From positions 1-39,636 of the forward strand of contig WQSB01000007.1 in NCBI GenBank assembly GCA_009788085.1: a stretch of 39,636 bases of DNA, written 5' to 3'. Positions 5,469 through 26,495 of the stretch are shown here, in pieces. A model generated the notes under the pieces. That model saw nothing but the letters and a program-made list of their open reading frames with translations, searched no databases and had not been told where the DNA came from. Numbering within the stretch: position 1 is the first letter of the stretch; each line of letters begins with the position of its first letter. Source of the DNA: Defluviitaleaceae bacterium (lineage in GTDB: Bacteria > Bacillota > Clostridia > Lachnospirales > WQUN01). The position numbers and the translations under genes are program-made.

Positions 5469-6212
5469 TTACAAAAACCCGCCGTCCAGCGGGATGACCT
5501 GGCCGGTAAGGTATGCGGCCTTTTCCGAGGCCAGAAAAACAGCCAAATCGCCCGCTTCTTGCGGGAGTCCGAAACGCCCCAGCGGAATGCTTTCCGCAAA
5601 GGCGTTTTTTTCGTCCTTGGAGAGGCGGTCGTTCATGCGGGTTTCGAACGCGCCGCAGGCTATGGCGTTTACGCAGATTCCGGAGGGGGCAAGCTCTTTC
5701 GCGAGGGACTTAGTCAGGCCGACGACCCCGGCCTTGGCGGCGGAATATACCGTCTCGCATGATGCGCCGGTGATTCCCCAAATGGATGTGATATTGATGA
5801 TAGTTCCGGTTTTCGCGCTCACCATGTTCGGAATTGCCCGGTGGGAGGCGTTTAGGGCCGTGTGCAAATTGGCGGCGAGAATCCCGTGAATTTCGGGCGG
5901 GGACATATCCGTGAACAGCCCAAAATGTGCCGCTCCGGCGTTGTTAATAAGCACCTGAACCGCACCGAATTCCGCCTCCACTTGGGCAAACAGCCTCTCG
6001 CTGCTTTCGTAGTCGGCGAGGTCGGCGAGGATGCCTGTTATCTTGGGATTGGCCGGAAATGCCTCCCGCAGCTCATTCACGGCACGCTCCAATTGTGCAG
6101 CGTCCTCGCGGGCGTTCAGTACAATGGAGTCCCCCTGCGCGGCAAAGGCTTTGGCGATTCCCAGGCCAATTCCCCGAGACGAGCCGGAGACCAAAACAAC
6201 GCGGCTAGTCAT
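5469..6212 (-). CDS. SDR family oxidoreductase (FabG-like)
   Basis: 247 residues of the classical short-chain dehydrogenase/reductase type. Seen: cofactor loop SGSSRGIGLG (residues about 9-18), ADLAD acidic turn, NNAG, catalytic Ser (NITSIWG), Tyr-x-x-x-Lys (YSAAK), and the C-terminal YLTGQVIPLDGGF typical of FabG-like 3-oxoacyl-ACP reductases. NADP(H) is likely because of NAREDAA after the second strand, but this is inference. Substrate cannot be told from sequence; no other fatty acid synthesis genes lie alongside. ATG at 6212 follows AAGGAG. It lies downstream of rpsU, separated by a terminator. Confidence 0.88.
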   Translation of the reverse strand: MTSRVVLVSGSSRGIGLGIAKAFAAQGDSIVLNAREDAAQLERAVNELREAFPANPKITGILADLADYESSERLFAQVEAEFGAVQVLINNAGAAHFGLFTDMSPPEIHGILAANLHTALNASHRAIPNMVSAKTGTIINITSIWGITGASCETVYSAAKAGVVGLTKSLAKELAPSGICVNAIACGAFETRMNDRLSKDEKNAFAESIPLGRFGLPQEAGDLAVFLASEKAAYLTGQVIPLDGGFL

Positions 6213-21732: not shown

Positions 21733-22251
21733 ATGGATGCAACTATGCGCAGAGAAAGAATATTTGAGATAATTAACAAAGATAATATGCCTGTAAGTGC
21801 TTCCGCACTGGCTAAAGAGCTGAGTGTAAGCCGTCAGGTTATAGTTGGGGATATTGCAATATTACGCGCACAAGGGCGTGAAATCATTGCAACAGCAAGA
21901 GGGTATATGGTTCCGGAGTTTATGACGTCAAATCAGTATGTAGGGAAAATTGCATGTTGTCACAATGTCGAGAATACCAAGGAAGAACTATATGCAATCG
22001 TAGATTTAGGCGCGACTGTTGTGAATGTAATAGTTGAACACGAGATGTATGGAGAAATCACAGGACAGCTTAATATTAAAACCCGCGACGATGCAGATAT
22101 TTTTGTTGAGCGGGTGAAATCATCTGAAGCTAAATTATTATCGGTGCTGACACTGGGAGTGCATCTGCATACAATCGTTTGTCGTAATAAAACACATTTC
22201 GAGCAGGTCTATCATGCTTTGGATAGTGCTGGATTTCTGGTTCAAAATTAA
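21733..22251 (+). CDS. HTH_11/3H-domain repressor (NiaR/YrxA type)
   Basis: 172 residues from ATG 21733. Winged helix at the N-terminus (ERIFEIINKDNMPVSASALAKELSVSRQVIVGDIAILRAQG) followed by a 3H domain named for three conserved His: CCHNVENTKEELYAIVDLG, VIVEHEMYGEI, LLSVLTLGVHLHTIV. In NiaR/YrxA this domain binds nicotinate and the protein represses NAD-precursor synthesis and uptake genes. The permease gene and operator downstream make it a likely local repressor. Whether its ligand is nicotinate is inference. GGAAAGGG lies about six bases before the ATG. Confidence 0.85.
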   Translation: MDATMRRERIFEIINKDNMPVSASALAKELSVSRQVIVGDIAILRAQGREIIATARGYMVPEFMTSNQYVGKIACCHNVENTKEELYAIVDLGATVVNVIVEHEMYGEITGQLNIKTRDDADIFVERVKSSEAKLLSVLTLGVHLHTIVCRNKTHFEQVYHALDSAGFLVQN

Positions 22252-22270: not shown

Positions 22271-22299
22271 TTGACACAAGCAAATCTTTCTCATATGCT
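22271..22299 (+). promoter_or_regulatory. Promoter of the PTS EIIC-like gene
   Basis: TTGACA (22271-22276), 17-bp spacer, TATGCT (22294-22299). The -10 box is the first part of the palindrome at 22294-22329. Confidence 0.75.
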
Positions 22300-22329
22300 T
22301 TGCACATGTCAAGACACATGTAAAGCATA
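22294..22329. promoter_or_regulatory. 36-bp near-palindromic operator, probably for the 3H repressor
   Basis: TATGCTTT at the left pairs with AAAGCATA at the right, and around the centre TGTC-AA-GACA is symmetric; 14 of 18 position pairs are complementary. It covers the -10 box and transcription start of the permease gene, so a bound protein would block RNA polymerase. The repressor gene ends 43 bases before it. The centre resembles what I recall of NiaR sites, which I could not check. Confidence 0.65.
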
Positions 22330-22346
22330 TTGAAGGGGAGATTACC

Positions 22347-23444
22347 ATGAAAAAAATGACAGTTAGAGAATACCTGGCAATGATATTTGATGGAATGACC
22401 AAGGGACTTTTTGCATCCTTAATAATTGGTACAATCATTTCACAAATAGGAAGTTTACTTGGGAATATTGACAATGGGTTTATCGGGAATATCGCGCTGG
22501 GAATAGAGCAAATTGGCCGCGCCGCACAGCTAATGATGGGGCCCGCTATTGGCGCAGGCGTCGCAATGAAGCGTGTTGCAGGGGCAGAGTCGAATCTAAA
22601 GCCTTTCACTTTGCTTGCTGCGGTTTCGGCAGGTGCGCTTGGGGCGGGGACGCTTAGATTTGCTGATGGAGGCATTGCGGTGGCATCCATTGTTGTTGGT
22701 GACCCCCACGGCGCACTGCTTTCCGTGCTTATAGCCATTGAGCTTATACGACGAATTGAAGGCAAAACGAAATTCGATTTGCTAATCATACCCGCACTTG
22801 TGATTATAATCAGTGGGTCTATTGGGCTAATTGTTACGCCGATTATCACCGAGGCTATGGGACGGTTTGGAGAGTTCGTAGTGCGAATTACGGATTTGCA
22901 TACTTTCCCAATGAGTATTATGATTGCAGTGATTATTGGCCTAACCTTAACTTTGCCCATTATTTCTTCTGCCGCGCTGTGCATCGCCATTGGCATTGGC
23001 ATCCCGCCAGAGGGCGTGACCGAAATCGGCACACTTGCAGCCGGTGCTGCACTTGCAGGTGCTTCGGCGCAAATGGTCGGCTTTGCAGTAAGCTCTTTTC
23101 GCGAGAACGGCACAGGTGGGCTAATCGCCCAGGGAATTGGCACGTCTATGATTCAAATGCCGAATATAATTAAAAATCTGTGGGTTTGGATTCCGCCTAT
23201 TGTGGCAAGCGCGATTTCCGGGCCGGTTGCCGCTGTGTTGCTGGGCATGAGAACAACTTCCGTTGGTGCAGGAATGGGGACTTCCGGGCTTGTTGGCCCG
23301 TTCCAAACAATTTATGCAATGGGAATGGGCGGGTTTGTACCTATGATTCTTGCATGTGTCGTTGTGCCCGCAACAGTCGCACTCGCACTTTCTGAGCTTA
23401 TGCGAAAGAAGGGGCTAATTAAAGATGGAGACTTGAAACTTTAA
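22347..23444 (+). CDS. PTS EIIC_2-type membrane permease
   Basis: 365 residues, about ten helices, Gly/Ala-rich. Blocks such as LMMGPAIGAGVAMKRV, GALGAGTLRFADGG, GDPHGALLSVLIAIELI, GIGIPPEGVTEIGTLAAGAALAGASAQMVGFAV and GMGTSGLVGPFQTIYAM are typical of the PTS_EIIC_2 family (putative sugar-PTS IIC without IIA/IIB). No IIA or IIB gene is adjacent. The upstream 3H repressor suggests it might import a vitamin-like molecule rather than a sugar. AAGGGGAG precedes the ATG. Confidence 0.8.
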   Translation: MKKMTVREYLAMIFDGMTKGLFASLIIGTIISQIGSLLGNIDNGFIGNIALGIEQIGRAAQLMMGPAIGAGVAMKRVAGAESNLKPFTLLAAVSAGALGAGTLRFADGGIAVASIVVGDPHGALLSVLIAIELIRRIEGKTKFDLLIIPALVIIISGSIGLIVTPIITEAMGRFGEFVVRITDLHTFPMSIMIAVIIGLTLTLPIISSAALCIAIGIGIPPEGVTEIGTLAAGAALAGASAQMVGFAVSSFRENGTGGLIAQGIGTSMIQMPNIIKNLWVWIPPIVASAISGPVAAVLLGMRTTSVGAGMGTSGLVGPFQTIYAMGMGGFVPMILACVVVPATVALALSELMRKKGLIKDGDLKL

Positions 23445-23455
23445 GGAAGTGGGTT

Positions 23456-25828
23456 ATGCTGAAACTAAAAAATATATCCAAGACGTACACCGGCGGGGAA
23501 GCCGTTGTCGCGCTGACAAATGTGGAGCTGGAGTTTCGGCAAAGTGAATTTGTGGCGATTCTTGGGCCCTCCGGATGCGGGAAAACAACGATGCTGAATA
23601 TCATCGGTGGGCTGGACCGCTACGACAGCGGTGATTTGGTAATCAAGGGCGTCTCGACAAAGGCCTTTAAGGACGCGGATTGGGATGCGTATCGAAACCG
23701 CTCAATCGGCTTTGTTTTTCAGAATTATAATTTAATCGGGCATCAGACCGTGTTGCAAAACGTGGAGCTGGCCATGACATTATCCGGTGTGGGCGCAAGT
23801 GAACGCCGCAAACGCGCCAAAGCGGTGCTGGAGGAAGTGGGCCTGACAGATAAATTATACAAGAGGCCCAACCAGCTTTCCGGCGGGCAAATGCAACGGG
23901 TGGCCATCGCCCGGGCCTTGGTGAACAACCCGGAAATAATAATGGCGGACGAGCCCACCGGCGCGCTGGACAGCGGCACAAGCACGCAAATCATGGACAT
24001 TTTAAAAGAAATCGCCAAAACAAGGCTGGTAATCATCGTAACTCATAACCCGGAAATTGCAGACAAATACGCAACCCGCATTATCAAGCTGCTGGACGGC
24101 GAGGTTCAGACGGACTCGAATCCGCCGCAACCCGCAGAATCAGCGGCGGAAAAACCTTTGTCCAAATCATATAAAATGTTCAAAAGGACATCTATGTCCC
24201 TTTGGACGGCGGCGTCATTGTCCTTTAAAAATTTGCTTACCAAAAAGGGCCGCACAATAACAACGGCTTTCGCGGGGAGCGTGGGCATAATCAGTGTCGC
24301 GCTGGTGCTGGCCCTCTCCACGGGGCTGACGCGATATATGGACACGATGCAGTCCGATGTGTTGGCATCCTTTCCTATTACTATTGTCACGGGGGAGTCC
24401 ATGCTTAATATCACGGGCTGGGCGGGCGTTCGCTTCGAGGCATTCCCGGAGGACAACACGATTCACCGTTTCAACCAGATGGACTTTTTGGAATTTCACA
24501 TAAATATTTTAAGCGACGAATTTTTGGAATATGTAGCCGAAATCCCCTATGTTTTGCCCGGCGCAATCAACACGATTTCATACTCGCGGCTGATTGGCAT
24601 GAATGTGCTGTCCGCCGCAGGGGACGCGGTCACGCAGTTTAATACCATGGCCGGTGGCGGCGGGCCCATGGCCATGCTTATGTCCGCCGGGTTCCCCGGG
24701 ATGGGGCCGGCAAACCCATGGCAAGAGCTGCCGGATAATCATGATTTTGTGCTAAGCCTCTATGAATTAATCGGCGAGGGTAGTAGAATGCCCCAGGCAA
24801 AAAACGAGCTTCTTCTGGTGGTTGACGAATACAACCGTCTGCCGGAATCCTTTTTTACCAACCTGGGCATTCCCCAAGAGCATCAGGACTTTAATTTTGA
24901 TGATTTCCTAGGGCAGAGCTTTTTAACATTAATCCGTCACAATGATTTCTTTCAGCCGGTAGGCCCGGCGATGTTCATGCCGGCTACCCCAGATATGCAC
25001 CACGAGCTTTTTCACGGCGGCGTGGAGCTTACCGTCGTGGGAATTCTGCGCATTCGTCAGGAGGCCGGAGGCGAGTTTTTCTCCGAGGGTTTTGTATACA
25101 CCTCCGCGCTGACGGCATATGTAATGCAACAGGCCGCCGAATCGGACATCGTACGTGCCGCCCTTGCCGCACCGGGCACTAATATTTTCACGGGCGCACC
25201 ATTTTTAAACGAAAACGAGGAGCGTATGGTAAACTTGGTAATCGGCGCAGACCAAACCCCCGTGGCCATAAATATTTTCGCGGTGGACTTCGAATCAAAA
25301 GAGCGCGTTACGGAATATCTGGACGCTTTCAACTACGACCGCCCAACCGCCGAGCATGTTGTCTACACCAATTTGGCCGAGTTAATCTCCGCAATGACCG
25401 CCACTTTACTAAGCCTCATGTCAACGGTGCTGATTGGTTTCGCCTCCATATCTCTGGTTGTTTCTACGATTATGATTGGCATCGTCACCAGCGTATCCGT
25501 AGTCGAACGCACCAAGGAAATCGGCATTCTGCGAAGCGTGGGCGCACGCAAAAAAGACATCTCCCGGGTGTTCAGCGCGGAGGCGGTAATCATCGGTTTC
25601 ACAGCCGGGGCAATTGGCGTGGGCATCGCCTGGCTTTTGACCATCCCCATTAATTTAATCGTAAGAAGCCTCATAGACGGCGGCGCGGGGGTAAATGTAG
25701 CCATCCTAACCCCTTTTAACGCACTGGTTCTCATCGCCGGAAGCATGGCTTTGACAATCATCGCCGGCTTTCTGCCCTCCAAGACCGCCGCCCGAAAAGA
25801 CCCTGTTGAGGCGTTAAGAACAGAATAG
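23456..25828 (+). CDS. Fused ABC transporter, ATPase plus FtsX-type permease (MacB-like)
   Basis: 790 residues. Residues 1-225: ABC ATPase of the LolD/MacB kind (GPSGCGKTT Walker [16 protein letters not shown] signature, [12 protein letters not shown] Walker [10 protein letters not shown]). Residues about 250-790: permease with one helix near 275, a large outer domain of about 360 residues, and three C-terminal helices with [19 protein letters not shown] and the final [10 protein letters not shown] of FtsX/MacB permeases. Such transporters move lipoproteins, peptides or antibiotics; the substrate is unknown. It starts 12 bases after the permease gene, so may share its transcript. Confidence 0.88.
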
Positions 25829-25840
25829 AAATGGATAAAA

Positions 25841-26131
25841 TTACTTCGAAAGTGGAACAATTTGCATAGTATATCCAAGTGGATACAACACTTTGAAAAG
25901 TGTATCAATTTGCGGGGTGGCTCTTAGGCTTTCCAGCCGGGCTATGGCCGGTTGCTTTACTCCGGATAGTTCTGCAAGTTCTCTTTGGGATAAACCTTTT
26001 TCTTCCCTAGCTTCAATCATTTTTCCGATTAAAGCAACTTCAAAATTGATACGCTCACGTTCGGCTGGACTTACCCTTGTTTCGTCATTCATGTAATCCG
26101 AGAATGTATCAATGGTTTTTGCAGTTTCCAT
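25841..26131 (-). CDS. HigA-like antitoxin (Xre HTH)
   Basis: 96 residues from ATG 26131; GGTGAG lies a few bases upstream, inside the end of the toxin gene. A helix-turn-helix of the Xre type is seen in GLSQRELAELSGVKQPAIARLESL. N-terminal residues before it are acidic and could bind the toxin. Antitoxin follows the toxin, the HigBA order. Confidence 0.85.
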   Translation of the reverse strand: METAKTIDTFSDYMNDETRVSPAERERINFEVALIGKMIEAREEKGLSQRELAELSGVKQPAIARLESLRATPQIDTLFKVLYPLGYTMQIVPLSK

Positions 26132-26132
26132 A

Positions 26133-26495
26133 TTACTCACCATGCCTTTCAATAAAATCATTCATTTTTGTACGGGCTTGCTCTATTTCTCGCAGTGGTG
26201 TTTTCTTCGTTTTCTTGATAAAGTAATGTAGCAAAACAAATTTATTATCTTTCCAGTAGAAGAAAAATATGCGGTTTGTTAAGGGGCGCAACTCCCATAT
26301 ATCACCGTCTATATGCTTTACTATTGGCTCACCTATACGAGTGCCGTATTTCTCCAACGAACCGATATATGCAAGAATTTTATCACGGTTAATGCGGTCT
26401 GTTTTGCTTGATGTGCCACGCTTTTTTAATTCGTCTAGGTATTCAACTATTTCAGATTTACCATTCTTGTCACGATAGAATTTGACTGTATACAT
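26133..26495 (-). CDS. HigB/RelE-family toxin (Gp49-like)
   Basis: 120 residues: YTVKFYRDKNGKSEIVEYLDELKKRG, then GEPIVKHIDGDIWELRPLTNRIFFFYWKDNKFVLLHYFIKKTKKTPLREIEQARTKMNDF. This is the phage-derived Gp49-like / HigB pattern with conserved ELRP and F(x)KK-TP blocks. It is an mRNA interferase family. It is first in the pair and its stop (TAA) is two bases from the antitoxin ATG. Confidence 0.87.
   Translation of the reverse strand: MYTVKFYRDKNGKSEIVEYLDELKKRGTSSKTDRINRDKILAYIGSLEKYGTRIGEPIVKHIDGDIWELRPLTNRIFFFYWKDNKFVLLHYFIKKTKKTPLREIEQARTKMNDFIERHGE

Follow-up and report, generated by a model that had tools for sequence, protein, structure and literature searches.

The NiaR (YrxA) regulon and its type I operator go back to Rodionov et al. 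(2008), as described in PMC5343564 and PMC7713382, and the niacin transporters NiaP, NiaX and NiaY have been reported as members of it (PMC5343564, PMC7713382, PMC6593275). NiaP is a major-facilitator protein (PMC12301409). The regulon combines a 3H-domain repressor and a TGT-N4-ACA operator with targets that are either NAD-related or uncharacterized membrane proteins thought to carry niacin. NiaX is an ECF-type substrate component, and NiaY is a NiaR-controlled membrane protein of Bacilli and Clostridia. We take NiaY to be the protein named 'predicted nicotinate-regulated transporter BH3254' of Bacillus halodurans in SEED.

We analysed a 39,636-nt stretch of contig WQSB01000007.1 (assembly GCA_009788085.1), hereafter the window, which holds a unit of similar make-up: a 3H-domain repressor gene, niaR, followed by a predicted NiaR operator and a permease gene of the Pfam family PF13303 (PTS_EIIC_2). 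Our reading, to which we assign a probability of about 80%, is that this unit provides niacin-repressed niacin uptake through NiaR, its operator and a NiaY-type PF13303 permease. As with NiaP and NiaX, niacin uptake would be controlled by NiaR; unlike the major-facilitator and ECF types, the permease is predicted to have an EIIC fold. The idea of a niacin permease in the NiaR regulon has already been proposed by others, and the window contributes a further member, not a new kind of system.

A NiaR-family repressor precedes the permease

The repressor gene (21733–22251, + strand) encodes 172 amino acids with an N-terminal HTH_11 domain and a C-terminal 3H domain, both above the Pfam cut-off (5.3e-14 and 1.2e-32, respectively). 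We set its start at the ATG at 21733 because relatives align from that point. Its closest solved relatives are NiaR proteins, with 7cv0 (BhNiaR) at the top (E = 1.6e-33), in agreement with a preliminary description of this DNA that had placed a NiaR-type repressor gene directly before the regulatory site. In B. halodurans NiaR, the metal and niacin ligands are H83, E91, H150 and H152 (PMC7713382), to which H77, E85, H144 and H146 of the window repressor correspond. These four zinc/niacin ligand residues are identical in 15 relatives, and the hydrophobic pocket is mostly retained. A single 3H gene is present in the window's genome. By its domains, ligand residues and type I operator, the repressor is a member of the NiaR family, and its DNA binding is predicted to depend on niacin.

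A predicted type I operator lies at the predicted permease promoter

A 36-bp near-palindrome, TATGCTTTGCACATGTC-AA-GACACATGTAAAGCATA (22294–22329, no strand), starts 42 bp after the end of niaR, where the preliminary description had located it. Repeat search returned 18-nt arms at 22293–22310 and 22313–22330 that are 83% complementary, and 14 of the 18 positions of the 36-mer pair. Symmetry alone is not significant: chance would supply 0.34 comparable 36-bp sites per window, and a second one of equal symmetry lies at 5572, so we dropped symmetry as evidence. What carries the site is its sequence content. With a symmetric 24-bp matrix built from the permease-upstream boxes of 13 genomes in which repressor and permease adjoin (window excluded), positions 22300–22323 scored 27.0 bits, while the second-highest score in the window was 8.9 bits. 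This core, TTGCACATGTCAAGACACATGTAA (24 bp, no strand), is a predicted NiaR type I operator: the DNA of the published B. halodurans NiaR gel shift (EMSA) reaches 27.5 bits when scored with this permease-trained matrix, which ties the permease-derived box to NiaR. The exact sequence ACNTGTCNNGACANNTGT has a single match in the window's genome, at the palindrome site. The outer TATGCT/AGCATA arms fall outside the 24-bp core common to other genomes and may be incidental.

The palindrome had also been said to lie on a −10 box, and a consensus scan agrees: a −35 hexamer TTGACA (22271–22276, + strand) is followed after a 17-bp spacer by a −10 hexamer TATGCT (22294–22299, + strand), the first six bases of the palindrome. 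With 10 of 12 consensus matches, this permease promoter is a prediction only, since the region is rich in promoter-like matches (11, against 4.9 expected). A ribosome-binding site, AAGGGGAG, can be read at 22333–22340 (+ strand).

Searches of the window's genome were limited to patterns and families. In a matrix scan, no NiaR box was found at its pncB gene, and a candidate second NiaR site, a one-mismatch match on contig C76, was rejected at 10.4 bits, about the noise level.

Repressor, box and permease recur across genomes

We surveyed 291 genomes of the same class, finding a 3H gene above the cut-off in 88, PF13303 in 128 and both in 49. The two genes are adjacent in 16 of these 49 genomes (window included); 15 of the 16 pairs are co-directional, niaR preceding the permease, and one is divergent. 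Leaving the window aside, 14 co-directional pairs remain: 13 have a strong box upstream of the permease gene and form the matrix training set, and the fourteenth has a marginal one. Among held-out PF13303 genes that do not adjoin a repressor, the box was present at 15 of 32 when the genome had a 3H gene and at 1 of 78 when it had none (Fisher exact test, P = 6e-9; this and the other P values overstate independence because the genomes are related). Acetoanaerobium noterae, outside the training set, has niaR, a box (22.1 bits) and the permease in that order. A search of other genomes for the operator and for 3H/EIIC_2 pairs, as the preliminary description had suggested, thus recovers both; the conservation of the palindrome, on which it had staked its proposal, extends to the 24-bp core and not to the outer arms, which are unshared.

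No strong box was found for homologues in records of Fusobacterium, Photobacterium, Nicoliella and Lachnospira eligens. Of the 128 genomes with PF13303, 79 have no 3H gene, so the family need not be linked to niacin everywhere.

Scanning the nearest neighbours of the repressor/permease pairs one by one, we found no PTS IIA or IIB in the window or at the 15 other pairs, a result that bears out the earlier remark that such genes are not adjacent here and extends it to the related loci. In the window, no PTS gene adjoins the pair, which is flanked by genes for a DUF3048 protein and an ABC-FtsX exporter. The exporter gene (23456–25828) encodes 790 amino acids that combine an ABC ATPase with an FtsX permease domain. 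A gap of 11 bp separates it from the end of the permease gene, with which it may be co-transcribed. At the other scanned pairs, no nearest neighbour was such a fusion. At 25841–26495, on the − strand, a gene for an HTH_3/HTH_37 protein of 106 amino acids overlaps the last part of a 120-aa gene whose product looks like a HigB-type toxin by eye; a toxin–antitoxin pair is possible, the domain scan bearing on the HTH protein alone. Elsewhere, a UPF0182 membrane protein of more than 900 residues adjoins the niaR/permease pair in four genomes (loci L014, L016, L017 and L019), and AgrB-like and NUDIX proteins flank it in four genomes of family f26 (L018, L022, L023 and L024).

Gene context links the locus to NAD metabolism

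At one of these loci (L017, one genome), nadA, nadB, nadC, niaR, the box and the permease follow one another in that order, nadB being an FAD-binding protein at the expected position. In the window's own genome, a family search found no nadA and no nadC above the cut-off, a weak nadC match falling on the pncB gene. These absences are likely real but may be gaps, as the genome is 93% complete; from its gene content, de novo NAD synthesis appears to be missing. The gene pncB, for nicotinate phosphoribosyltransferase, is present. Whereas the NiaR regulon has NAD-related targets besides membrane proteins, the sole strong operator found in this genome is that of the permease, and since nadA and nadC were not found, the role of NiaR here seems confined to uptake.

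Across the survey, nadA occurred in 32 of 128 genomes with PF13303 and in 82 of 163 without (odds ratio 0.33, P = 1e-5). Within 3H-bearing genomes, the association of PF13303 with absence of nadA was not significant (P = 0.39). The preliminary description had suspected a vitamin or pyridine transporter: the gene order at L017, the genes lacking and present in the window's genome and the conserved repressor ligands all support the link to the vitamin, and niacin is the putative substrate.

The permease has a predicted EIIC fold and no adjacent PTS partners

The permease gene (22347–23444, + strand) encodes 365 amino acids that match PF13303 (E = 6.1e-78), with no IIA or IIB domain fused to it in the Pfam scan. 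Its AlphaFold2 model (mean pLDDT 89) has an EIIC fold, matching MalT (5iws) with Z = 16.8 over 335 residues and the PtsG model 9a3b with Z = 20.4 over 338. It therefore shares the fold of these glucose-superfamily EIIC proteins over nearly its whole length, but differs from them in its sequence (about 13% identity), in having no adjacent IIA/IIB and, by a positional comparison, in showing no GLHH or GITEP motif. GLH and TEP are common to PtsG, MalX and NagE, where the GITEP-like motif appears in part or whole; in an alignment of 33 PF13303 sequences, neither an invariant histidine nor a TEP motif was found, the correspondence with PtsG being positional and approximate. HHalign produced no alignment of the PF13303 family with PtsG, so the motif position was taken from the fold and is a positional inference only.

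In public databases, relatives of the permease go under the name 'PTS sugar transporter subunit IIC'. In a tree of PF13303, the window permease sits on a long branch, and it has a 10-residue insertion. A separate NiaR-regulated clade of PF13303 was considered and rejected: box-bearing and box-less permeases are intermixed and do not form two clean groups, the tree requiring six changes of box label. The window's genome carries a second PF13303 copy (locus L028, G000:C62:9559-10180) that matches the family in two separate pieces and is missing its N-terminal part. It is apparently a decayed paralogue, and its locus yielded no NiaR box.

We reached the genome of H. halodurans DSM 497 through the published gel-shift site. 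It has a single PF13303 gene, and that gene bears a 19.9-bit NiaR box, which fits NiaY/BH3254 being a PF13303 protein. Alongside this result, we presume that NiaY belongs to PF13303; a literature search with BH3254, COG3641 and PF13303 found no paper that names the sequence family of NiaY. We had also considered lp_2514 of Lactiplantibacillus plantarum as NiaY, wrongly, as it is NiaP, a major-facilitator protein. Like NiaY, the window permease is a membrane protein with NiaR control, here predicted from the operator at its promoter, and it is most likely NiaY.

Proposed niacin-repressed uptake and its alternatives

In the mechanism that we propose, the 3H domain of NiaR would take up niacin and a metal ion, and NiaR would then bind the operator at 22300–22323. 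When niacin is plentiful, bound NiaR would block transcription of the permease, impeding RNA polymerase because the operator directly follows the predicted −10 box. Under niacin scarcity, NiaR would release the operator, the permease would be made and niacin would be taken up. PncB, encoded elsewhere in the genome, would convert it to nicotinate mononucleotide and hence towards NAD. The organism would need such uptake because its de novo NAD synthesis appears to be missing.

The permease would share its fold with sugar PTS EIIC proteins and probably works without PTS phosphorylation. We infer that niacin is both the co-repressor and the substrate here, and that the permease is a PTS-independent, secondary or facilitated carrier whose substrate is trapped by PncB. 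Coupling to the PTS is unlikely, although the genome has enzyme I. For the family as a whole, we lean slightly towards regarding PF13303 as proteins of EIIC fold in which the sugar-phosphorylation machinery was lost and which act as PTS-independent niacin carriers.

Among the alternatives, the one nearest to this reading keeps NiaR in control of the permease and changes the substrate to another NAD precursor or pyridine, such as nicotinamide, nicotinamide riboside or a degradation product. Regulation by NiaR places the permease in NAD metabolism and no further, in Streptococcus pneumoniae the NiaR regulon also covers pnuC, for a nicotinamide riboside transporter (PMC5343564), and nicotinamide could likewise be the substrate. 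Quinolinate would be useless to this organism because nadC appears to be absent. We nevertheless consider another substrate unlikely, as the genome has pncB, whose product uses nicotinate, and the literature gives the name NiaY to a niacin transporter.

A true sugar PTS EIIC that has its IIA and IIB at other loci and adjoins niaR by accident would account for the fold of the model, for the enzyme I in the genome and for the public annotation of the relatives. It would leave unexplained why the pair and its operator recur in many families, why the scanned nearest neighbours include no IIA or IIB, why the pair adjoins nadABC at L017 and why PF13303 shows no invariant histidine or GITEP-like motif (a positional and approximate correspondence), and we regard it as very improbable. 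Less credible still, to the point of being negligible, is that the palindrome arose by chance and regulates nothing: repeats of this symmetry are expected at 0.34 per window and one does recur at 5572, but the sequence is that of a conserved NiaR operator, at 27 bits, and across genomes the box tracks the presence of the repressor gene.

Implications for niacin uptake in Firmicutes

A survey of a gut genome collection could assign B3 transporters of the three known families with confidence to only 25% of the B3 auxotrophs (PMC6593275). If NiaY-type permeases are niacin carriers, as we propose for the window permease, an uptake route would be identified for many niacin-dependent Firmicutes. The widespread label of 'PTS sugar transporter' would then be corrected, and the EIIC fold would be seen to be used without group translocation. 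Should PF13303 at large consist of PTS-independent niacin carriers, much of what is annotated there as 'PTS sugar transporter subunit IIC' would be niacin permease. The link to NiaR makes the substrate of the permease directly testable.
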